Assembly: GCF_009296025.1 (NCBI RefSeq)
Contig: NZ_CP045178.1
Span: 1,550,001 to 1,614,000, forward strand
Direction of reading: 5' to 3'
DNA length: 64,000 nt
Source: Streptomyces tsukubensis
GTDB taxonomy: Bacteria > Actinomycetota > Actinomycetes > Streptomycetales > Streptomycetaceae
Shown one piece after another: positions 18,192 to 30,216 of the stretch. Numbering within the stretch: position 1 is the first letter of the stretch; every line of letters starts with the position of its first letter. Position numbers and translations under genes: made by a program. Under the pieces are notes generated by a model that was not told the DNA's origin, did not search any database, and saw only the letters and a program-made list of their open reading frames with translations.

Positions 18192-19100
18192 TCAGAAGAC
18201 GCTGACGCCGTAGGCGCTCAGGGCCTCGGTGACCGGCTGGAAGTACGTGACACCACCCGAGGTGCAGTTGCCGCTGCCGCCCGACGTCAGGCCGATGGCG
18301 GTGTTGCCGGAGTAGAGCGGGCCGCCGGAGTCGCCGGGCTCCGCGCACACGTTGGTGCGGATCATGCCGGTGACGATGCCGTCCGCGCCGTAGTTGACGG
18401 TGGCGTTGAGGCCGGTGACGGAACCGCTGTGCACACCGGTCGTGGACCCGCGCCGGGTCACGCTCATGCCGTTGGTGGCGTTGGCCGCGCCCGTGATGTC
18501 CACGCTGCCGACCGTGCCCTCCTTGGCGATCGTGGTGTTGGTGTACCTGACGATGCCGTAGTCGTTGCCCGGGAAGCTGGAGCCCGAGGTCGTACCGAGC
18601 ACGGTGGTGTGCGCGGAGTTCGACCACCACGTGGTGGCGCCGCTGGTGCAGTGCCCCGCGGTCAGGAAGTAGTAGGTGCTCCCGCTGCGGACGTTGAAGC
18701 CGAGGGAACAGCGCCAGCTACTGGCGTAGATGGCGTCGCCGCCGGAGATCAGCTTGGTGAACTTACCGGGGGTCCGCTCGATCTTCAGAGCGCCCGCGTT
18801 CTCGTCCGCCGCCGCCTTGATCTTCGCGATCTCGGCCGCGGAGACGGTGCTGTCCGCGGTGACCACGAGCCGGTTGGTCTTCGGGTCGATGTTCCACGCG
18901 GTGCCCGCCACGTCGGCGTCGAGTACCGCGTCACTCGCGGACTTGAGCTCGGCCGTGCTGTAGACGGTGTTCGTGGTGTTCTCGCCAGCGTGTGCCGCGG
19001 GTACGGCGAAGGCGGCAGCGGCCACGAGTCCTGTCGCCACGGCGGTCAGCCGGGTTCGTCTCGCTATGCCGCTACGGGGGGTGGTGCGCTTGATCCTCAC
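18192..19100 (-). CDS. sprB: streptogrisin B-like serine protease precursor
   Basis: The 302-residue precursor matches the classic Streptomyces griseus protease B architecture: signal peptide ending AAHAG, a propeptide of about 75 residues, and a mature domain starting [14 protein letters not shown]. The catalytic elements are [13 protein letters not shown] and [10 protein letters not shown]; the mature C-terminus [11 protein letters not shown] is nearly that of SGPB. The enzyme should be a broad-specificity secreted protease, autoprocessed on export. GTG 19100 is chosen for its upstream GGAGG and because the signal peptide (RIKRT) starts there; the frame upstream is not protein-like. Confidence 0.94.
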
Positions 19101-19522
19101 GTGGTTCCTCCAAAGGGGAATCGAGGGCCCGGGAGTGGGGTCGGGCCGTGAGGCGCAGCCAAGGGAGGGTCCCGGATTCCGGATACGCCGTGCCCCTGAC
19201 AAGCGCTGCACGGGAGTTTCGAGCACCACCGCTGAGTCCACAAGGGCATATTTCGGCCGGGCTTGCCGCCGCCCGTTCGTGCCCCTGTGACGCGAGTGCA
19301 CCCGTGGGAGAGACGTCTACGCGTGAGGCGTCCCCCGAGGGGGGTGCGATGCCTTCAGGCGGACCGATCGCGTCCGAAACCGTACGGAGAGGCCCACGGA
19401 CACGGTCCGGTCCTGCCCCCGCCCCTGTCCCTGCCCCTGCCCCGCCTCGGCGCGGCCCACCGCCCCACCGGCCACCGGCCACCGGCCACCGGCGCGGAGC
19501 CTCACCCGGGCGCGGAGATCGT
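19101..19522. other. promoter region of streptogrisin B-like gene and 3' flank of the monooxygenase gene
   Basis: No gene is seen on either strand. Four copies of the 7-mer CCACCGG lie at 19465-19492, and C-rich short repeats (CCCCTG) lie at 19415-19442. Confidence 0.5.
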
Positions 19523-20485
19523 TCACACGGAGCCGCCCACGACCCGATGGCGGACGACGGCGGCGTGGCGTTCGAGCCCCAGATGCTCCCGAAGGGTGCC
19601 GCCCGGATAGAAGGTACGGAAGAGCCCGCGGTGCTGGAGCAGCGCCACCGTCCCGTTGACGAACCGTTCGAGGTCCCTGTGCGGCTCCACGGGGGTGATG
19701 TGGAAGCCGTCGACAGCGCCCACCCGGTGCCAGCAGCCGATCAGTTCGGCCAGGTCGACGGGGCCGCCCCGGTAGAGGGGACGGCCCTGGCCCCTCCCCC
19801 CGCGTGGGCCTCCCCCTCCGTGGTCGGGTCGCGCCGCGCCCTCGCCTCCGCCCAGGTCGACGGCGAGCGCGGCGAGGACCCGCAGGGCTTCGGGGTCCCT
19901 GCCGTGGGCCGCGGCCCTTTCGCGCAGTTCCTCGCGGACCGCTTCCGCGCTCTCCGGCGTGGCCGCGCCGACGAGTGCCACGTCGGCATGGGCGGCGGCC
20001 AGGGCGCGGACGTGCGGATCTGTGACGTCGACCACGGCCACGGGTCCGCCCCGCGGGGGCCTCGGTAAGCGGGCCGGTCCGGCCTCCGGCCGCCCGCCGG
20101 GCACTTCGAGCACCCAACCCGCGCGCCCCCCGCTCACCCGGTCGAGGGCGGCGGCGGTCTCAGGGAGCCGCAACGGATCAGCCTGCGCCGCCGTCAGCGT
20201 CGGCACCAGCCCGATCCGCCTGGTCCTCGGCGCGAGGCCGGCGAGGACGGACAGAACGGAGAGCGCTCCGGAGCCGGGGCCGGGGCCAGCGCCGAGGCCG
20301 GAGCCGCCGAAGGTATCACCGAGGGAATCACCGAAGGCGTCGCCGAGGGTGACGAAGTCGAGCATGCCCCGCTCCGCGAGTCCGGCGAGCGCGGCGAGAT
20401 CGGCGGGCGCGACGGGATCACCGCTGCCGCGCCCACCGATGGCGGCGGCGAGATGCGGCAGCCCTCGGCCGGCCTGTGCGGACAT
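19523..20485 (-). CDS. LLM-class flavin-dependent oxidoreductase
   Basis: The 320-residue protein has a luciferase-like monooxygenase fold: LAERGMLDFVTLGDAF near the start, the RTRRIGLVPT strand, LDRVSGGRAGWVLE, and a C-terminal HITP segment. Members of the NtaA/SnaA/YtmO group use reduced FMN and oxygen to cleave C-S or C-N bonds. At 320 residues it is shorter than the usual 400-450 of that group, with less in the middle. It is the last gene of the minus-strand transporter cluster; ATG 20485 has GGAAGG upstream. Context, with amino-acid ABC genes and an acetyltransferase, suggests oxidation of an N-acetyl S-substituted cysteine, as an inference. Confidence 0.83.
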   Translation of the reverse strand: MSAQAGRGLPHLAAAIGGRGSGDPVAPADLAALAGLAERGMLDFVTLGDAFGDSLGDTFGGSGLGAGPGPGSGALSVLSVLAGLAPRTRRIGLVPTLTAAQADPLRLPETAAALDRVSGGRAGWVLEVPGGRPEAGPARLPRPPRGGPVAVVDVTDPHVRALAAAHADVALVGAATPESAEAVREELRERAAAHGRDPEALRVLAALAVDLGGGEGAARPDHGGGGPRGGRGQGRPLYRGGPVDLAELIGCWHRVGAVDGFHITPVEPHRDLERFVNGTVALLQHRGLFRTFYPGGTLREHLGLERHAAVVRHRVVGGSV

Positions 20486-20600
20486 GGGGTTACTGCCTTC
20501 CTGACGGCGTGAAGTGCGGCGGTGGGGGCTGCACGAGGCGAAGACGGCGGCGCGCCGAGGCGACCAACAGCACGGGCTGCCCGTCGGGGTGGGAGGGGCC

Positions 20601-20687
20601 GATCCCCGGCTTGGGCAGCCCCTCCGGCCGATCCCCGGCTTGAGCAGACCCGCCGGCCGGTCTACGGCTTGGGCAGCCCCTCCGGGT
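20601..20687. repeat. 29-bp tandem triplication overlapping the 3' end of a binding-protein gene
   Basis: Three 29-base units (20601-20629, 20630-20658, 20659-20687) share the core CGGCTTGRGCAG. The third unit contains the last codons and the TAG stop of the gene ending at 20662; in the first two units the stop triplet position has changed to CCC. Confidence 0.85.
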
Positions 20688-21651
20688 TGATCTCCGACTT
20701 CTCGACCGCCTCGGCCGAGAGCCCCCAGCGCTTGAGGACCTTGGCGTACGACCCGTCGGCGATGACATGGTCGAGCGCGGCCGCGTAGGCGTCGGCGAGG
20801 CCGCTGCCCTTCTTCGTGGTGGCGGCGATCTTCCCCTGGAGCCGGTCGCCCGCGCCGGAGAGGCTGCCGATCACCTGCGACTGCTCCGCGGTGGCCACGT
20901 GGTAGGCGACGGTGGGGCTCGGGCCGAGGTAGGCGTCGATACGACCCGACTGGAGCGCCAGGTAGTAGTCGGTGTCCTTCTGGAAGTACTTGATGTCGAT
21001 GGGCTTCCTGCCCGCCTTCTTGTTCTGCTTGTCCCAGTCGACCAGGATCTTCTCCTGGTTGGTGCCCGAGGCGACGGCGACCGTGCGGCCCGCCAGGTCC
21101 GCGGGGCCCTTCACTCGCCACTTCGTAGGCTTCTTGGCCTCGAAGGCGATGTTGTCGAGGCGGTAGGTGGCGAAGTCGTACTTCTCCTTGCGCTCCTCGG
21201 TGACCGTGACGTTCGACAGCACACCGTCGAACTTGCCGCTGTCGAGGCCGACGAAGAGGTTCTCCCAGGAGACCTCCTCGAACTTCGGCCTGAGCCCGAG
21301 GACGTCCGCGATCAGGGTCGCGATGTCGATCTCGGAGCCGATACGGGTCTTGTCGTCCGAGGCGTAGAAGCCGAGCGGCGGCGAGGCGTCGGCGCTCCCG
21401 CCGAAACGCAGTGTGCCCCTGGACCGGATGGCGGCGGGCACTTCGGCGGCGATGGCGGCGACCTTCTTGACGTGGACGCGGTGCTGGTCGGGGCCGATGT
21501 TGATCCCCCCGGCCCGGTCGGCGCGGGCTGGGGAGCCGCCCCCGGCCCCCGCGCCCGTGGCCGCGTCGGTGTCACCGCCGCAGGCGCTGAGCACGGGTGC
21601 GGCGACGAGCGCGGCGAGAGAGAGGGCGAGAGTACGGCGACGGGCAGACAT
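20662..21651 (-). CDS. ABC transporter amino-acid-binding lipoprotein
   Basis: The 329-residue protein has a lipoprotein signal with lipobox LSAC near residue 23, a Gly/Ala linker, and a family 3 solute-binding domain (RFGGSADASPPLGFY, IGSEIDIATLIADVLG, FDGVLSNVTVTEER). This class binds polar amino acids or related compounds outside the membrane. It follows the ATPase gene by 73 bases and precedes the flavin monooxygenase. A second binding protein of the same family is encoded by the divergent arm of the cluster, so the two may share the permeases or bind different forms of the ligand. Confidence 0.92.
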   Translation of the reverse strand: MSARRRTLALSLAALVAAPVLSACGGDTDAATGAGAGGGSPARADRAGGINIGPDQHRVHVKKVAAIAAEVPAAIRSRGTLRFGGSADASPPLGFYASDDKTRIGSEIDIATLIADVLGLRPKFEEVSWENLFVGLDSGKFDGVLSNVTVTEERKEKYDFATYRLDNIAFEAKKPTKWRVKGPADLAGRTVAVASGTNQEKILVDWDKQNKKAGRKPIDIKYFQKDTDYYLALQSGRIDAYLGPSPTVAYHVATAEQSQVIGSLSGAGDRLQGKIAATTKKGSGLADAYAAALDHVIADGSYAKVLKRWGLSAEAVEKSEINPEGLPKP

Positions 21652-21724
21652 GGAAGCTCCATGGGTGGCGGGGCGGGCGACGGAAGGGGGCGAGCCGGTT
21701 CACTTGGCGGGCGTCGGCCCCCGC

Positions 21725-22570
21725 TCACAGCACCTTGGAGAGAAAGGCGCGGGTCCGCTCGTGGGCCGGGTGGTCGAGGACGGCCTCGGGCGTGCCCTGC
21801 TCGACGATGCGGCCCGCGTCCATGAAGACCACGGTGTCCGCGACCTCACGGGCGAAGCCGATCTCATGGGTGACGACGATCATCGTGGTGCCCTGCCGGG
21901 CCAGGCCCTTGATGACGTCGAGCACTTCCCCGACGAGTTCGGGGTCGAGGGCGGAGGTCGGTTCGTCGAACAGCAGCAGCTTCGGCTCCAGGGCGAGCGC
22001 CCGTGCGATGGCGACGCGCTGTTGCTGTCCGCCGGAGAGTTGCTTGGGGTACGAGTCGGCCCGGTCGGCGAGTCCGACCTTCTCCAGGAGCGCCTTCGCC
22101 GCTTCGACGGCCTCCTTGCGTGGTTTGCGCAGCGCGGAGACCGGCGCCTCGATGATGTTGTCGAGCACGGTCAGATGGGGGAAGAGGTTGAAGTTCTGGA
22201 AGACGAAACCGATCCGGGTGCGCTGCCTCAGCACCTCACGTTCACGGAGTTCGTAGAGCTTGTTCCCGGAGCGCCGGTAGCCCACCAGGGCGCCGTCCAC
22301 GCTGATCCAGCCGCTGTCCACCTTCTCCAGGTGGTTGATGGTCCGCAGCAGTGTGGACTTGCCCGAGCCGGAGGGGCCGAGGACGACGGTCACCTCCCCC
22401 GCGCGTACGGCGAGATCGATACCGCGCAGGACCTCCGTGGTGCCGAAGCTCTTGCGTACGCCCCTGACGTCGACCATGAACCCGCCTGAGCTGTCCTTGT
22501 TGATCCGGGTGTCGTTGCCGGGGGTGTCGTTGCCGGGGGTGTCCTGGGTCTCTGCCGCCGTCGCGCTCAT
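21725..22570 (-). CDS. amino-acid ABC transporter ATP-binding protein
   Basis: The 281-residue protein has Walker [10 protein letters not shown], signature LSGGQQQR, Walker [13 protein letters not shown] and the switch His in VVTHEIGF. It closely follows the GlnQ/HisP polar amino-acid uptake class. The ATG at 22570 overlaps the permease stop (ATGA). The first 30 residues are extra and contain a five-residue repeat (TPGND twice) encoded by a 15-bp duplication around 22511-22540. This is the only ATPase gene for the two permeases in the cluster. Confidence 0.95.
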
Positions 22571-23457
22571 CGCGTGGCCCCTTTCGAGAAGTGTCGTTCC
22601 ACGTAGTGCTGGAGTACCGAGAGCACGGTGGTCAGGAGGATGTACCAGGCGGTGGCGACCATGAGCAGCGGTACGACCCGGCCGTTGCGTCCGTAGATGA
22701 CCTGGACCTGATAGAACAGCTCGCCGATCGCCATCACGGAGACGATGGAGGTGCCCTTGAAGAGGGAGATCACCTCGTTGGCGGCGTTGGGCAGGATCGA
22801 GCGCATCGCCTGGGGCAGCACGATCCTGCGGATCTGCCGCAGCCTGGGGATGCCGAGCGCCGCCGCCGCCTCCAACTGCCCGCTCTCCACGGCCAGCACG
22901 CCACCGCGCACGATCTCGGCGGCGTAGGCCGCCTGGTGCAGGGCGAGACCGAGTACGGCCGCGCTCATCGCCCCGACGAGCCCCATCGTGTCGAAGGAGA
23001 AGAAGCCGGGGCCGAAGGGCACACCGAACTGGAGCCGGTCGTAGAGGTAGGAGAGGTTGAACCAGAAGAGGAGTTGGACGATGAGCGGGATGGAGCGGAA
23101 CGCCCAGATGTAGCCGAAGGCGACGCCTTTGAGGAACGGGCTGGCCGAGAGCCGCATGAAGGCCAGCACGATACCGAGGGCGAAGCCGAGTGCCGTGCCG
23201 TAGACGGTGAGCTGGACGGTGACCCAGACCGCCTTGAGGATGACGTCTGCGGTGAAGAACCGCGCGAAGACCTCCCACTCCCAGCCGGTGTTGGTGGCGA
23301 AGCCGTGGGCGAACTGCGCGAGGACGACGACGGTCACCGCGATGGCGGCCCAGCGCCACGGATGCCGGACGGGCACCACTTCGAGGGCGCCGTAGTCGTC
23401 GGCGGCGCCGGACACCTGCGCCGTGGCGCCGAGGGTGGGATCGCTGGTCAGGGACAT
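22567..23457 (-). CDS. amino-acid ABC transporter permease
   Basis: The 296-residue protein has about five membrane spans and the HisM-type inner-membrane loop ([26 protein letters not shown]) that docks on the ATPase. The N-terminal 40 residues are cytoplasmic. It is translationally coupled to the ATPase gene downstream and separated by 159 bases from the FAD/NAD(P) gene upstream. A paralogous permease lies on the other side of that gene, suggesting a heterodimeric or duplicated membrane pore. Confidence 0.94.
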
Positions 23458-23616
23458 GGGGTTCCTCTGGTGGGCGGGTGCGCGAGGACAGGACGCGGCG
23501 GGTGCGCGAAGGGTCCTGTCGGGTGGGGACCACGGGCGGCGGACCGCGCGGCCGGGCCCGGCGCGCTCCCGAAGGAGCGGGCGGGGCCGCGGCGGCGTCG
23601 GACGGTCCGCGTCGGG

Positions 23617-25413
23617 TCAGGCCGCGGAGGCCGGACACTCCAAGTCGCGCAGGAACCCGATGAGGGCGCGCGCGGTGGCGTCGTTCTGCCGGAAGGAGGG
23701 GCTGTTGGTGCGGGGTCTGGTGAACGCCCCCGCTCCGCGCGCGTCGGTGTGCGGGCCGAGTGCGAAGCGCCTGGGATGCGACCGGCCGCTCACGTCCCGC
23801 ACCCGTCCGTCGGCGGGTGCGACGGCGAGCAGTCCGTCCGCCGTGGAGAGCGCCCCTTCCGCGAACAGCTCCCGCAGCAGCGGATCGCGTACCCGGTCGG
23901 CGGTGGGCTGCGGCAGTCGCGCCTCGACGAGGGCGCGCGCCCGGAACGTGGCCCCTGGCACGGTCGTGGTGGTGGCGGCGAATCCGCCTGGCTCCGTGGT
24001 GATGGTCAGTCCCGCGCCGAGGAAGCGGACGACTCCGGCGCGGGAGAGGGCGAGGAGCTGTCGCAGCCGGGGTCCTGGCGGCCCCGAGGCGAGGAAGCTG
24101 AAGAACCCGTGCCACCAGGGGCCGATGTCCCCGAGCCGCATCAACTGGCCGTATACGGAGAGCAGTCCGAGGAAGACGGCCAGGTCGGGGCTGTGTGCCG
24201 GGTCGTGCCTGCGGTCGAGGTCGGTGGCGACGAGAGTGCGCAGGCCCTCCTGGAACTCCTCGTACGAAGCGTGGCGCACCTCGTGGAGCGGATGGTCGAG
24301 CGCGTCGAGGTCGAGCCGGTCGGCGGCGTCGGGTACGGCGGAGGCGACAAGGGCGTACAGCTCGGCGCTGAGCGGCTCGGCGGCCGCGTACTTCTCCTCG
24401 AAGTCCGCCCAGGCGATCCGCGTCCGCTCGGGGTGGACGGCGAAGAGCCGGTGGTAGTGGGCGAAGCCCAGTTCCTTGTCGACCAGGGGCCACACATCGC
24501 GCCGGAAGTCGAGCGGCCCCGGGCGGGCCAGCAGTTCGTCGGTCTGGGCGGGCCCGAGGAAGCGGGGCAGCGGCGGTCGTTCACCCTCCCACTGGTAGCC
24601 GATCTTCGAGTGGTAGGGCACTCCGCGCCGTGAACCGACGTGCAGGACGGGCTCGCGTCCGGAGGGGAGGTAGGTCAGCTCCCCGTCGTCCCCTTCCTCG
24701 TAGCGTCCGCCTCGCCCCTCTGTTAGCAGGACCATGAGGTCGATGAAGGCGAGCCCGAATCCGCGTACGAGGACGGGCTCACCAGGGGCGAGTGCCGACA
24801 GGTCGGTGTCGGCGGTGAAGTCGGGCGGCAGGTGGACCAGGCCGTCGCGCCGGGCGTGCGCGGCGAGGTGCCGCTGTTCCTCATCGAGTTCCGCGTCCTG
24901 GTGGCCGAGGGCGAGGACGACGAGGTCGGCGAGGAGCGGGCGGCTCTCCCCCTCGATCCACACCTGCTGCCTCCCGTCCCGCGGGCCGCTCACCCGGCTG
25001 GCCCTGGTGCGGTGCTCGTGGACCCGGACGTCGGAGGGGAGCGCGGAGACCGTCCGCTCGTACACCCATCGCAGATAGGCGCCCTGGTCGCGGCGGCCCG
25101 CGAAGGTCGCCCCCTCGATCTCCGCCCACTCGTGCAGGGTGGGCCCCGGCCTGACGGGCCCCTCGATCTCCACCGTGTCGTCGGTGAACATGGTGACGTC
25201 CTCGGCCATGGAGTTCATCCACAGCAGCGGCGACTGCTCCTGGCGCCATATCCGGCCGCCGCCGGGCGGGTAGGGGTCGATGAGGTGGATGTCGAGCCCT
25301 TCGGCTCCGTACGACCCGGCTCCGTACGGCTCGGACGCGTTGGCCGCGATGCGCTCAAGCAGCCCGACGGCGCGAGGACCTGCCCCGACGACGACCAGCG
25401 TGCGCGCCGTCAT
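23617..25413 (-). CDS. FAD/NAD(P)-binding protein, possible flavin monooxygenase or reductase
   Basis: The 598-residue protein opens with a dinucleotide-binding motif [16 protein letters not shown] and has GGGRIWR nearby. A second Gly-rich segment [14 protein letters not shown] lies near residue 227. This corresponds to the FAD-NAD(P)-binding family (PF13454-like) found in large single-component flavoproteins. The C-terminus ends [13 protein letters not shown]. It sits between two amino-acid permease genes, and its ATG at 25413 overlaps the stop of the upstream permease (ATGA), so it is part of the uptake operon. It could supply reduced flavin to the LLM enzyme or act on the imported compound itself; neither is shown by sequence. 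Confidence 0.85.
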
Positions 25414-26291
25414 GACCGCTCCGTACCGCGCGCATAGTGCCGCTCCACATAGTGCTGGCCGACGCTGAGGACCGAGGTGACCACGATGTACCAGATGGTC
25501 GCGACCAGCAGCAGCGGGATCACTTGGTAGGTGCGGTGGTAGACGAGTTGCACGGAGTAGAGCAGGTCCTCGACGGCGATGACGCTGACGATGGAGGTGC
25601 CTTTGAGCGTGCCGATCAGCATGTTCCCGGCCGGCGGCACGATCGAGCGCATGGCCTGGGGCAGGACGATCCTGCGCAGCCTGCGCCACCGGCCGAGCCC
25701 CAGTGACTGGGCGGCCTCGATCTGCCCCCTGTCCACGGAGAGCAGCCCTCCGCGCACCACCTCGGCGGCGTAGGCGGCCTCATGGAGGGTGAGCCCGATG
25801 ATGGCGACGGTGATGGGGCCGAGGAGGTTGACCGTGCGGACGGTCAGGAACTCGGGGCCGAAGGGAATACCGAGGCCGAGCCGGGGGTAGAGCGCGCCGA
25901 TGTTGAACCAGAAGAGCAGCTGCACGAGGATCGGCGTCGACCTGAAGAACCAGACGTAACCCCAGCTCACCCTGGTGAGAACGGGGTTGCTCGACAGCCT
26001 CGCGAGCGCGAGCAGGGTGCCGAGGACGAAACCGAGCACCATGACGACGGCGGTGAGCCAGAGGGTGAGCCCGAGGCCGCGCAGCACAGCGGTGGTGGCG
26101 AAGTAGTCGGCCACCACGTCCCACTGGAACGCCTTGTTGCGGGCGACGGAGTTGACCGCCATCGCGAGCAGCAGGACGACGAGTACCGCCGCTGTCCACT
26201 GTCCGGTACGCCGGACCGGGACGATGCGGGGCTGGGCGTCGGCTTCGCCCGGTGGGGCTACCGGGCGCTTGGTGAGTGTGTCGGAGGACAT
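25410..26291 (-). CDS. amino-acid ABC transporter permease (second copy)
   Basis: The 293-residue protein is a HisM-type permease, clearly paralogous to the permease at 22567-23457 (shared SIVSVIAVEDLLYSV and IPLLLVATIWYI regions, and the loop IEAAQSLGLGRWRR). About five membrane spans are present. It is the first gene of the minus-strand arm. ATG 26291 is chosen because the upstream frame is not permease-like. It overlaps the FAD/NAD(P) gene by four bases. Confidence 0.94.
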   Translation of the reverse strand: MSSDTLTKRPVAPPGEADAQPRIVPVRRTGQWTAAVLVVLLLAMAVNSVARNKAFQWDVVADYFATTAVLRGLGLTLWLTAVVMVLGFVLGTLLALARLSSNPVLTRVSWGYVWFFRSTPILVQLLFWFNIGALYPRLGLGIPFGPEFLTVRTVNLLGPITVAIIGLTLHEAAYAAEVVRGGLLSVDRGQIEAAQSLGLGRWRRLRRIVLPQAMRSIVPPAGNMLIGTLKGTSIVSVIAVEDLLYSVQLVYHRTYQVIPLLLVATIWYIVVTSVLSVGQHYVERHYARGTERS

Positions 26292-27077
26292 GCGAGGGCT
26301 CCGTGGATGCTGCGATCGAACACGGGTCTCGCCTTCACACGGTCCGCGCCCCTCAGCGCATCCCGCGTCCCCGAGATTACGGGGCCCTTTCGGTCCGCTG
26401 TCAAGGCTGTCCACACTATGAGCCGTTCGTCTCATGTCAGTTGACGGGAAACCGGATGCCTGTTCCACTTGTGCCCATGCTTGTACAGCAGTGGCTGGTC
26501 ACGCGCTCCCACATCGACTTCGGTCGCGTGTGGTCCGCGTCCTGTTCGGGGACCACCGCGATCGCGGCCTCCCGTCGAGCCTGACCCCCTGCCCCGCCCG
26601 CGCCACCGGCCGGGCGTCTCTCTGAGGCTCAGGACCCTCCCTTTCCGCGGTTCGCGCGCCTGACGGCCCGATACCGCTGTCGTCCCACGGGCCCCTGCCC
26701 GCGGGACCCGCGGCCTTCACCCACCCCGTTTCCGGGGACGGTCGGCCTGCCCTTCCTTCCTGCCTTCACCGCACCACCTCCCCTCGCGCACACCGCACCT
26801 GAACGTCTCCGCGTACACCGCACGTGAACGTTTTCCACGCGCACCGCACCTGAACGCTTCCAGGTACACCGCACGTGAACGCCTCCGCGTACACCGCACG
26901 TGAACGTCTCCACCCGCACCGCACCTCGCCCTTTCACGCCCACACCCGTCCCGTACCTCTCTCGCGCACGCACACCCCATGCGGACCTTTCCTCGGAGAG
27001 CCGGCGCAGGCCCGCCCGCCCCACGAGGCGAGGCGTACCGCGCCCCGCATCCCCACCCCACCTCCGGAAGGGCACGC
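26292..27077. other. divergent promoter region of the transporter cluster
   Basis: This 786-base gap separates the two arms of the amino-acid transporter cluster. It contains no gene I can support. The half nearer the acetyltransferase holds an array of degenerate 25-bp repeats (26785-26930); the half nearer the permease has somewhat lower GC (26330-26480), fitting a promoter. Confidence 0.6.
26785..26930. repeat. 25-bp degenerate direct repeats, five to six copies
   Basis: The core ACCGCACSTGAACG recurs five times at about 25-base spacing (for example at 26792 and 26817), with the flanks CGCGTACACC and TCTCC partly conserved and a sixth, eroded copy at 26913. Spacers are not unique sequences, so it is not a CRISPR array. 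The position between divergent operons fits an array of operator sites for a helically phased regulator, as an inference. Confidence 0.75.
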
Positions 27078-27656
27078 ATGACGTTCGCCCCCAGCCGTCG
27101 GCCGGCGCTGCCCGGCGACGGCCTCTCCGTGCACCACACCTCCGTCGACGACCCGCTGGTCCGGCCGATGCTCGATGAGCTGGCCCGTGAATATCGGGGC
27201 CGCTACGGGTCCGACCACGACCTGCACCGCTATCCGGCCGCCGAATTCGCCCCACCGGAAGGGGAGTTCCTGCTGCTGCTGGAGAACGGCGAAGCGGTCG
27301 CGGGCGGCGCCTACCGCCGTCACAGCCCGCTGACCGCCGAACTCAAACGCATCTGGACCCACTCGGAACACCGCCGAAGAGGTCTCGCGCGCCGAGTCCT
27401 GCTGGCCTTGGAGCAGTCGGCCGTGGCCGCCGGTTACCAGCGTCTCTACTTGACGACGGGGCCGCGTCAGCCCGAGGCGAAGGGGCTCTACCTGGCCTCC
27501 GGCTACCGGCCGCTCTTCGACCTGTCCGTCGATCCCGAGACCATCGGCCCGCTGCCCTTCGAGAAGGACCTGCCACCCGCGCCCGACGGCCCGAACGACG
27601 GCCCGCCGGTCCCGCCCGGCACCCCGCGACACGATCTGGAGACCCGTACCTCATGA
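27078..27656 (+). CDS. GNAT N-acetyltransferase
   Basis: The 192-residue protein has a single GNAT domain with the acetyl-CoA loop HRRRGLARRVLLALE near residue 97 and a short beta-bulge region GEFLLLLENGEAVAGGAYR. The C-terminal 20 residues are Pro-rich. ATG 27078 is chosen at the start of the recognisable fold. The stop overlaps the start of the following binding-protein gene (ATGA), so it belongs to the transporter cluster. In Bacillus ytmI and yxe operons a GNAT of this type N-acetylates S-substituted cysteine; the same role is an inference here. Confidence 0.85.
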   Translation: MTFAPSRRPALPGDGLSVHHTSVDDPLVRPMLDELAREYRGRYGSDHDLHRYPAAEFAPPEGEFLLLLENGEAVAGGAYRRHSPLTAELKRIWTHSEHRRRGLARRVLLALEQSAVAAGYQRLYLTTGPRQPEAKGLYLASGYRPLFDLSVDPETIGPLPFEKDLPPAPDGPNDGPPVPPGTPRHDLETRTS

Positions 27657-28630
27657 ACGCCCACCCCACGCCCGAGCGCCGCAGGCGACTCGGCGCACCC
27701 CTCGCCCTGCTCGTATCCGCGGCTCTCGCCCTGACCGCGTGCGGCTCGGGCGAGCCCGCGGGGACGGGCGCGGGAGGCGGAGGCGGGGGCGCCAAGGCCG
27801 CCGCCGAGCCGGGGAAGGTCCCGACGAACGACGTGGTCTCCGGCGTACACGAGGACAAGGCGGCCGCCGGCCTGCTCCCCGCTGACGTGGCGAAGTCGGG
27901 CACCCTCAATCTGGCCGCATCGGTGGGCGCCCCGCCCTCCTCGACCTATCTGGCGGACGGCAAGAGCGTCGCGGGTATCGACATCGACGTGTCGGAAGCC
28001 GTCGCGAAGACCCTCGGCATCAGGCTGAAGAGGCAGGTCGCGAGCTTCGAGGCCATCCTGCCCGCGCTCGACAGCGGCAAGTACGACGTGGGGACGGGGA
28101 ACTTCGGAGTCACCGACGAGCGCCGCCACACCCTCGACTTCGTCACCTACATCAACGACGGCCAGGGGTTCGCCACCCGTGAGGACAGCGAGCTGAAGAA
28201 GGTCACGACGCTGAAGCAGTTGTGCGGTCTGACGGTCGGCACGGGGGCGGGCACCACCTTCGAGGTCACCCTGGAGAAGAGCAGGCATCTCTGCGCCGAG
28301 GCGGGCAGGAAGCCGTACGACGTGAAGACCTACTCCGACCAGAGCGCCTCCTGGGCCGCACTGCAACAGGGCCGCATCGATGTCGTGATGAGCACCATCA
28401 ACGGGCTGCGTTACGCGGTGGCGCAGCAGGAGGGGCTGGAGTTCCGAGGCGAGTTCCACCGTCTCGACGTCGGCTTCGCCTTCAAGAAGGGGACGAAACT
28501 CGCGCCGGCCTTCCAGGCGGCCGTGAACGAGATCATCAAGAACGGCACGTACGCCCGCATCCTCAAGAAGTGGGACGTCACCCCTTCCGCGCTCACCTCG
28601 TCGAAGATCTCGCCGCCCGAGATCAAGTGA
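27653..28630 (+). CDS. ABC transporter amino-acid-binding lipoprotein (second)
   Basis: The 325-residue protein has a lipoprotein signal with lipobox LTAC near residue 28, a long Gly-rich linker and a family 3 solute-binding domain (IDIDVSEAVAKTLGI, LDSGKYDVGTGNFGVTDER). It diverges considerably from the binding protein at 20662-21651 in sequence. It is translationally coupled to the acetyltransferase and has no permease on its own strand, so it presumably uses the divergent permeases. The gene ends facing the DUF5685 gene across a hairpin. Confidence 0.92.
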   Translation: MNAHPTPERRRRLGAPLALLVSAALALTACGSGEPAGTGAGGGGGGAKAAAEPGKVPTNDVVSGVHEDKAAAGLLPADVAKSGTLNLAASVGAPPSSTYLADGKSVAGIDIDVSEAVAKTLGIRLKRQVASFEAILPALDSGKYDVGTGNFGVTDERRHTLDFVTYINDGQGFATREDSELKKVTTLKQLCGLTVGTGAGTTFEVTLEKSRHLCAEAGRKPYDVKTYSDQSASWAALQQGRIDVVMSTINGLRYAVAQQEGLEFRGEFHRLDVGFAFKKGTKLAPAFQAAVNEIIKNGTYARILKKWDVTPSALTSSKISPPEIK

Positions 28631-28646
28631 TGTCGTCGAGTGGGTA

Positions 28647-28683
28647 CCGCGGGGGAACCCTCCACCGAGGGACGTCCCCGCGG
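28647..28683. terminator. bidirectional terminator
   Basis: CCGCGGGG (28647-28654) pairs with CCCCGCGG (28676-28683), and an inner CCCTC/GAGGG stem completes a long hairpin between convergent stops. Confidence 0.7.
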
Positions 28684-28713
28684 CCCCTGTCCGACTCCGC
28701 CCGCCCGCCCGCC

Positions 28714-29910
28714 TCAGCAGCCGTCGCAGCCGCAGTCACAGCTGTCGCAACCGCAGTCACAGTCGCAGCAGTCACAGTCGGGGCAGTCGCAGCCGTCGCA
28801 GCTCTGGCAGCAGCCTTCGCGCTTCTTGCCCGACCAGGGCCCCTCGTACTCGGAGGCGCAGCAGACCTTGCAGGTGCAGCAGAGTCCGACGAGGGCCGCG
28901 CAGCCGGCCAGGAGCCCACGGCCACCGGGCCGAGGGGGTTGCCCGCCCGCGCCACCGGCACCGCCCCGATCCCCCTCCCCCGTCTTCTCGTCCCGGTCCG
29001 GGGAGAGCGGCTCGAAAGCGGGGCCCGGCCGGTGGGCTCCGCGGGGTGAACAGCCCGAGGCGCGAAAGGCCCGGTCCACGGAGCGCGGGAGTTCGTGGGC
29101 GAGCAGGAGGTGCGCGAGCCGGCCGTCGGTGAACTCGACGTCCCGCAGCGCCAGCCGGATACCGTGCACGGCGTCGTCCGCGAGGCGCCGCGCCTCGGTG
29201 AGCGGTGTCCCGGTGGCGGTCAGCGGGTTCCACGCACCCGACGCGGCGTCAGTCTCCTTGTCCTCCACGGCGTCGAGCAGGTGGGCGAGGCGTCCGAAGA
29301 GCCGGCCGGCCTCGGCGAGCGGCGCGCGGTTTCCCGGCCGGCCCGCGAGGACAGCCGTGTGCGCGAAGGCGGCGGCCGTGGCGGTCTCCGTCGGTTCCGT
29401 GACGGTGGTCAGCGCCGTGCCGGGTCCGGCCAGCGCCTCTATGGAGCCCTGCCGGCCTGCCGCCGAGACCAGTACGGCGGTGTCGAAGCCGACCCCCACC
29501 CCCGAGCGCCGCCCCGCCTCGGCCCAGCCTGAGGCGACTCTGCGGGCCGCGGCGGCGACGGGTCTACGGGCCAGTACGCCGTCGCCGTCGGCGACATGGT
29601 CGTGGACCTTGGCCGAGGCGAGCACGAGGGAGACTGCGGCGGCGAGCCTCGCCCCCTCGCCCCTGGCGACGGACGCGGTGCGCATCCCTCTGAGCGGACA
29701 GGGCCCCGCGGTACGTCTGCGGCCGTTGGCCGATTCCGCCTGAGCCTCCGTCAGAACGGAGATGATCAGACCGTCATAGTTCGTCACGACTCGGGCGAAT
29801 TGGCCATGATCTGTCCGCAGTGCGAGACAGAGCCCGCACAAATGAGCCATCCACTGACTCTTCAGCGCCTCCCCGAGGCTGTGGGCACAGGGTCTGACAA
29901 TTCCGAACAC
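28714..29910 (-). CDS. DUF5685-like protein with Cys-rich tail
   Basis: The 398-residue protein begins FGIVRPC and contains the block MAHLCGLCLALRTDHGQ typical of the Streptomyces DUF5685 family, with paired Cys motifs that could bind metal. From about residue 365 the tail is extraordinarily rich in Cys and Asp: 15 Cys in the last 32 residues, mainly as CDC and CDCC repeats. It is preceded by a short hydrophobic and Cys segment (LVGLCCTCKVCC) that could be a membrane or metal site. GTG 29910 is preferred over the first ATG because it has a G-rich ribosome site and matches the family start. Function is unknown; metal handling is a guess from the Cys content. Confidence 0.82.
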   Translation of the reverse strand: MFGIVRPCAHSLGEALKSQWMAHLCGLCLALRTDHGQFARVVTNYDGLIISVLTEAQAESANGRRRTAGPCPLRGMRTASVARGEGARLAAAVSLVLASAKVHDHVADGDGVLARRPVAAAARRVASGWAEAGRRSGVGVGFDTAVLVSAAGRQGSIEALAGPGTALTTVTEPTETATAAAFAHTAVLAGRPGNRAPLAEAGRLFGRLAHLLDAVEDKETDAASGAWNPLTATGTPLTEARRLADDAVHGIRLALRDVEFTDGRLAHLLLAHELPRSVDRAFRASGCSPRGAHRPGPAFEPLSPDRDEKTGEGDRGGAGGAGGQPPRPGGRGLLAGCAALVGLCCTCKVCCASEYEGPWSGKKREGCCQSCDGCDCPDCDCCDCDCGCDSCDCGCDGC

Positions 29911-30216
29911 CGACGTTTCCCCCAAGGACCCGAACACCCCGATACGATCGCGGCATCGTACCGGCGGCCCGATGGGCTGTTTCGTTCACCCGTACGCACC
30001 GCCCGTCACCCATAGGCACCCATCGGGCGCGAATAATCACATTTCACTCTCCGTCAGCACATGTGCACGGCTTAGGCCTTGAAGAATCACGGTGCGCTCT
30101 GCACCAGTACCGTCACGAAAACACCGCGCGGCGACTATCCCCTTGGCGCACCATCCGCATCATGGACGACCATAGAGATGCGGAAAGCAGGGAAACCGCT
30201 GCGAGAGGAGGCGTCC
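29911..30216. other. divergent promoter region between DUF5685 and sepF-like genes
   Basis: No gene is recognised in these 306 bases. GC content falls around 30030-30130, consistent with promoters in both directions. The ribosome site GAGGAGG for the sepF-like gene is at 30205-30211. Confidence 0.4.

Follow-up and report, generated by a model that had tools for sequence, protein, structure and literature searches.

Our analysis of a 64,000-nucleotide stretch of the 8.6 Mb Streptomyces tsukubensis genome (contig NZ_CP045178.1, positions 1,550,001 to 1,614,000; the whole stretch is called the window here) points to a gene cluster for organosulfur scavenging that would be induced by cysteine starvation and that is present here in a partly reduced form. 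From sequence comparison, we give this reading a probability of roughly 0.6. The eight genes that the original prediction placed in two divergent arms are all present with the predicted domain classes, while a leader open reading frame (ORF) with a cysteine codon between the arms had been missed. The leftward arm contains, in order, PERM2 (a HisM-type permease), FAD (a flavin adenine dinucleotide/NADP class-B monooxygenase), PERM1 (a second HisM-type permease), an amino-acid ATP-binding cassette (ABC) ATPase, SBP1 (a family 3 binding protein) and LLM1 (a luciferase-like monooxygenase subunit). The rightward arm consists of the leader ORF, a GNAT acetyltransferase and SBP2, a second family 3 binding protein. 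The new points are the remodelled pocket of the FAD enzyme, the joint decay of LLM1 and a second luciferase-like protein (LLM2), and Cys leaders that persist without the genes they would lead. No paper on this cluster was found in the open-licence literature searched.

The comparison set comprised 96 loci, 16 of them numbered L040–L055 and the other 80 (L100–L179, of which 77 are Streptomyces) being the best 80 of 583. As all 96 were retrieved via the FAD gene, the frequency with which that gene is lost is not readable from them. Gene-presence counts refer to the 84 loci with at least 6 kb on either side of FAD, and those for LLM1 and LLM2 take in decayed and fragmentary copies.

The leader ORF (26477–26584, forward strand) was recognized from a block shared by all 60 divergent intergenic regions aligned, the window's included, which encodes MHPQQWLVTRSHIDFGRVWSSSC followed by a stop, or close variants. 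It was found in 95 of the 96 loci (the exception is a 3.2-kb contig; for L053 its SsuA leader was counted) and precedes SBP2 or GNAT in 53 of the 95. A pattern made from the leader core, permitting TGC as well as TGT, has 82 matches in 20 of 21 genomes, and the reversed pattern has none. The terminal Cys codon is TGT in all 82 matches and in all 59 distinct cores; TGT makes up 165 of 1553 Cys codons in predicted genes. A conserved promoter-like block (26440–26471, forward strand; alignment of 19 regions) lies ahead of the leader ATG, and no Shine-Dalgarno-like stretch was seen there, so the ORF is probably leaderless. The S. tsukubensis genome has five matches to the core pattern, the window's included. 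The other four precede an FMN_red gene, a PALP (cysteine-synthase-like) gene, an operon for sulfite/nitrite reductase, CysH, APS kinase and CysN, and an alkanesulfonate-monooxygenase-like gene (465 bits against a cut-off of 510). Among four leaders taken from other genomes, L218 stands ahead of an SsuD-like gene and L221 ahead of an LLM gene; the exceptions to a short ORF with a Cys codon ahead of sulfur genes are L222 and L223.

Cys-rich leader ORFs are described for mycobacteria in excerpts of PMC4633059. The leaders found here resemble the mycobacterial Ms4527A family (NF042936) in being short, Cys-ending ORFs ahead of sulfur genes, and differ from it in scoring below the family cut-off, in having the rare TGT codon fixed and in that 36 of 95 loci have no reference operon behind the leader. 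We treat cysteine-dependent attenuation by the leader as putative. Within the ORF lies an inverted repeat, CCACA(T)CGAC-TTCG-GTCG(CG)TGTGG (26508–26533, forward strand), which forms in the predicted folds of L100 and L044 and not in the best fold of the window's own copy. A hairpin common to all Cys leaders was not supported, the CGAC-TTCG-GTCG repeat being specific to the subclass of this cluster. A search for an Rfam element between the arms gave a single match up to E 1, to a CRISPR-repeat model far below its cut-off, which was discarded.

A sulfur role, proposed originally, is likely from three lines of evidence taken together: the Cys leader, the neighbors of divergent orthologues, and the importer. 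The orthologues L052–L055 adjoin SsuD-like LLMs, two of them (L052 and L053) also adjoin SsuA-type binding proteins, with TIGR01728 above cut-off for L053, and an FMN (flavin mononucleotide) reductase lies beside the L053 orthologue. The ATPase (21725–22570, reverse strand; PF00005) has TcyN as its best NCBIfam match at 326 bits (cut-off 406), with EhuA (307) and GlnQ (304) close behind. Both permeases have cystine permease as best curated match, below cut-off; for PERM1 (22567–23457, reverse strand; PF00528) the score is 142 bits against a cut-off of 300. PERM2 occupies 25410–26291 on the reverse strand when read from its ATG, and its ORF extends back to 26468. The resemblance of a relative's LLM2 to MoxC/YtnJ, described below, adds to this support. 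The Pfam classes alone would permit a cluster for general amino-acid uptake unrelated to sulfur, and the binding proteins are not specifically cystine-like, but the leader and the neighbors make such a cluster very unlikely.

The FAD gene (23617–25413, reverse strand; 598 amino acids; PF13454) overlaps PERM2 by a shared ATGA, in agreement with the overlap originally noted. Its product has the fold of, and 40% identity to, aspartate N-hydroxylase: a three-domain class-B fold with FAD and NADP sites. In comparison with the L-aspartate N-hydroxylase of Streptomyces sp. V2 (FzmM/CreE type; PDB 8CP2/8CP5), the whole fold is shared and Arg13, Trp51, Asn62, Arg577 and Arg593 have equivalents, those of Trp51 and Asn62 being W56 and N67. 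Unlike the V2 enzyme, the FAD protein has R266K and R276P/A, has no Arg or Asn opposite 409/412/413/416, and occurs with an ABC importer and a Cys leader. No nitrosuccinate lyase partner occurs among the ten proteins of our domain scan (18192–29937), a genome-wide search not having been made. The substrate cluster Arg266/276/409/412/416-Asn413 is replaced by K, P/A, L, Y/F, G/A and non-Arg in all 16 sequences compared (the window and 15 orthologues). Acidic substrates (aspartate, cysteate, taurine, S-succinocysteine) had been considered since the V2 enzyme binds sulfate and aspartate, and were lowered with the Arg/Asn cluster gone. We read the FAD enzyme as a candidate organosulfur-directed, remodelled relative of the amino-acid N-hydroxylases. 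The aspartate Arg cluster is likewise missing from three FAD paralogues outside the ABC-linked group (L056, L057 and L066), which makes additional substrate classes likely. In public records several FAD orthologues go by 'adenylate cyclase', and one is called 'FAD-dependent urate hydroxylase'; these names agree with neither Pfam nor the fold.

The same fold and identity could instead indicate a biosynthetic amino-acid N-oxygenase making a nitro, nitroso or oxime building block, with the importer feeding a natural-product or signalling pathway, and the known members covered in excerpts of PMC10404684 are N-oxygenases. Such an assignment is unlikely given the conserved chromosomal site, the Cys leader and the SsuD-like and SsuA neighbors. 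The two window neighbors scanned (the protease and DUF5685 genes; the flanks were not surveyed systematically) are also non-biosynthetic. The original prediction had offered a built-in flavin reductase or a different chemistry. The former, as a supplier of FMNH2 to LLM1/LLM2, is suggested by the FAD gene sharing an arm with LLM genes, but fold and W56/N67 are of the oxygenase type, and seven of the 84 loci have FAD with neither LLM at the presence threshold. Among these seven, L140 and L164 have LLM remnants by more sensitive queries, L052 and L053 have an SsuD-like LLM, and for L105, L119 and L131 the queries found none. We consider a flavin reductase most unlikely, and the different-chemistry caveat was the better half of that guess.

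The cluster recurs at one chromosomal site, which argues against a chance arrangement: an alpha-lytic-type protease gene is nearby in 79 of the 84 loci, an acyl-CoA dehydrogenase gene in 73 and DUF5685 in 64. The fullest form, seen in L046 and L047, is PERM2-FAD-PERM1-ATP-SBP1-LLM1-LLM2-DUF1684 with GNAT-SBP2 divergent, and the window locus has neither LLM2 nor the DUF1684 gene. LLM1 is present in 75 loci, DUF1684 in 62 and LLM2 in 51, while the importer genes range from PERM2 (56), ATPase (54) and SBP2 (54) to PERM1 (19) and SBP1 (17); GNAT is found in 9. On a quick FAD tree (76 of 87 rows, excluding L054, L055 and nine fragmentary or contig-end rows), SBP2 presence switches 18 times, and we infer that loci without SBP2 lost it rather than never having it.

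LLM1 of the relatives is a short NtaA/DmoA-type protein. In the window it (19523–20485, reverse strand; PF00296, 64.8 bits) is 320 amino acids long, versus 338–377 in 42 of the 45 relatives with intact LLM2. Of 12 aligned relatives, 10 carry a block of 65 residues that it lacks; in the remaining two the block has 77 and 79 residues. We scored the catalytic middle (residues 93–199 of the L042 protein) against the consensus of LLM2-intact copies; this consensus favors LLM2-intact rows, and the same proteins' retained C-terminus serves as an internal control. The window protein has an identity of 0.22 in the middle and 0.83 at the C-terminus. Identity in the middle averages 0.87 across the 43 rows whose LLM2 is intact, 0.64 across the 5 in which it is decayed and 0.39 across the 37 that lack it, some of the last being contig-cut or fragmentary. 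The divergent, LLM2-intact L054 and L055, at 0.58–0.59, were excluded from the mean, and L054 keeps the WDSWE motif. Across 87 rows the middle falls below 0.70 in 35 without intact LLM2, and in 28 of these, the window included, the last ~90 residues stay at 0.83 or above. A C-terminus below 0.83 (0.36–0.71) occurs in 13 of the 45 LLM2-intact rows, mostly from a clade with a shorter C-terminus, L120 being an ORF artefact.

Ratios of nonsynonymous to synonymous differences (pN/pS) were taken from selected rows that exclude fragments, decayed LLM2 and divergent C-termini. In 28 rows without intact LLM2 they are 0.63 (N), 0.79 (middle), 0.54 (C1) and 0.25 (C2), and in 36 LLM2-intact rows 0.38, 0.34, 0.57 and 0.29. 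The 76 rows of the FAD tree comprise 42 with LLM2 and the LLM1 middle both intact, 29 with LLM2 lost and the middle eroded, 5 with LLM2 lost and the middle not yet eroded, and none with LLM2 intact and the middle eroded. Each trait changes about 15 times on the tree, and of 11 independent pairs 7 to 9 show erosion going with LLM2 loss and none the reverse (median sign-test p 0.0039). The predicted model of window LLM1 (mean pLDDT 76) still has a recognizable LLM fold, so the protein may fold without the 65-residue excursion of its relatives. Given the eroded middle, the missing block and the absence of LLM2, we reject the view that an LLM is the key enzyme here, and the LLM cleavage originally proposed for this locus is not supported.

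LLM2 of L046 is full length (TIGR03860, 400 bits against a cut-off of 280), with MoxC/YtnJ as its best solved-structure match and 7e36_B a close second. A PQGxPVxxQAGxS-type stretch occurs in all nine LLM2-type proteins examined and in none of nine LLM1-type proteins, which suggests a helper role for the LLM1 subunit. Pairing of LLM proteins of unequal length has a precedent in the heterodimer NtfO1-NtfO2 (PDB 7E36), whose subunits have 324 and 421 amino acids, with FMN docked into NtfO2, according to excerpts of PMC8027225; that pair serves in polyketide tailoring, not sulfur metabolism. LLM1 and LLM2, whose genes are adjacent and decay together, are a putative heterodimer. Elsewhere in the S. 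tsukubensis genome, at ~7.95 Mb, a paralogous pair (L079) is 43% and 64% identical to the L046 pair; its LLM1 copy retains WDSWE, and the pair is preceded by a Cys leader-like ORF (..QHIDLLRVAGALCRP). Another short/long pair at ~7.85 Mb (L078) is flanked on both sides by cytochrome P450 genes and is perhaps biosynthetic.

The original prediction compared the cluster with the ytm (snaA/tcy/cmoO/cmoJ) and yxe/scm operons of Bacillus subtilis, so that the GNAT would N-acetylate, and the LLM then cleave, imported S-substituted cysteine. Against the pathways as given in excerpts of PMC10863075 and PMC9706529, the parallel holds loosely for the cluster family and poorly for this copy. The gene classes agree, with an amino-acid ABC importer, a GNAT and, in relatives, a CmoJ-like LLM2 best matching MoxC/YtnJ; the Cys leader suggests sulfur control, and sulfoxidation followed by C-S cleavage is known for CmoO/CmoJ (PMC10863075, in excerpt). 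In contrast, window LLM1 has lost its conserved middle, LLM2 is absent, and the operon also holds a class-B FAD enzyme from a different family. The GNAT (27078–27656, forward strand; PF00583; best solved relative YsnE, 33 bits) is optional, occurring in just 9 of 84 loci, which leaves N-acetylation without standing as a conserved step. No deacetylase was found among the ten proteins scanned, as the original prediction had stated, a genome-wide search again not having been made. A pathway of this type is accordingly improbable at this locus.

In 36 of the 95 loci with a leader, no reference gene lies within 1.5 kb behind it on its strand, and all 36 of these orphan leaders are divergent from FAD. 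Some of these loci retain other ABC genes (for example PERM2 in L045, L117 and L173). Behind 29 of the 36 leaders an antisense gene is the next one predicted; behind the other 7 it is a sense gene of 145–147 amino acids 482–1245 nt away, which by position only is the counterpart of the window SepF gene. Leader codons have a pN/pS of 0.37 in orphans and 0.33 in the others, and several synonymous sites are also fixed, so that the leader seems constrained in both peptide and nucleotide sequence. Since the ORF and its rare TGT persist in these 36 loci without SBP2 or GNAT, we tentatively suggest, at somewhat less than even odds, that the leader has a second job independent of its own operon. It could be a cysteine-responsive module whose target is the divergent FAD arm, or a small RNA or peptide working in trans, in the service of a new organosulfur-oxidizing branch of the aspartate N-hydroxylase fold.

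In the scavenging cluster we propose, scarce cysteine would stall the ribosome at the rare UGU codon of the leader and so allow expression of the GNAT-SBP2 arm, as leader similarity suggests; cysteine shortage would presumably control the left arm too. Through a cystine-type ABC importer that has two permeases and two binding proteins, a sulfur-bearing amino acid would enter the cell, and the FAD enzyme, as a single-component NADPH class-B monooxygenase, would oxygenate it. The polyanion-binding arginines are gone from its pocket, so the expected substrate is neutral, an S-alkyl-cysteine or a methionine-like compound, with oxidation more likely at S than at the amino N. Where the cluster is complete, LLM2 (catalytic, CmoJ-like) and its helper LLM1 would then cut the C-S bond as a two-component FMNH2 monooxygenase. 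The locus here has lost that pair, whose place could be taken by the paralogues at 7.95 Mb, which likewise stand behind a Cys leader.

Several observations weigh against this proposal. The window leader matches NF042936 (cut-off 45 bits) at just 22.6 bits (E 5.9e-5), and two relatives' leaders at 21.7 and 27.0. The stop directly follows Cys in 54 of the 60 aligned regions, but the window ORF continues for 12 more codons; this lost stop is another sign that the copy is changing, and the attenuator may not work normally here. Leaders L222 and L223, of the same subclass, head Pro-kumamolisin-type genes, which are not obvious sulfur genes. The cystine-family matches of the ATPase and permeases are below curated cut-offs with small margins, as are the SsuD-type neighbor matches below theirs; both binding proteins score best with a kinase-fused domain model (StpK7), and SBP2 fits a Lys/Arg/Orn model better than the cystine model. 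The ABC genes are missing from about a third of the loci (PERM2 in 56 of 84) though FAD, by which all were retrieved, is kept. Finally, the alignment of the FAD helical domain is weak, and two alignments put different residues opposite 412–416, neither of them Arg or Asn.

Further features complete the locus. SBP1 lies at 20662–21651 (reverse strand) and SBP2, headed by the Cys leader, at 27653–28630 (forward strand); both are SBP_bac_3 proteins (PF00497). A promoter-like TTGACA...TAATCT, by resemblance only, stands ahead of PERM2 (26374–26404, reverse strand). Between leader and GNAT, a tandem repeat (26787–26926) has 5.6 copies of a 25-bp unit like CACCGCAC(C/G)TGAACGT. The alpha-lytic-type protease gene of the window is at 18192–19301. 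In L040 (10666–14348) and L042 (7679–8251), which have no ABC genes, a small operon lies between FAD and DUF5685, with PF03029 ATP_bind_1, Roadblock/LC7 and NIT-sensor/HATPase genes, and presumably resembles a conservon. The L223 leader (10387, reverse strand) precedes its Pro-kumamolisin-type gene, while a 293-amino-acid ORF without Pfam match separates the L222 leader (1134, forward strand) from its own; such leaders before Pro-kumamolisin-domain genes suggest that secreted proteases may be under cysteine control.

The cluster is a candidate route by which Streptomyces could supply itself with sulfur from organosulfur amino acids in soil and, if our reading is true, it would show the amino-acid N-hydroxylase fold put to a second use. 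LLM1 and LLM2 have decayed together repeatedly, with the C-terminus mostly kept, which amounts to a natural experiment on how the subunits of luciferase-like enzymes depend on each other. The orphan Cys leaders, if functional, would widen the known role of attenuator leaders.

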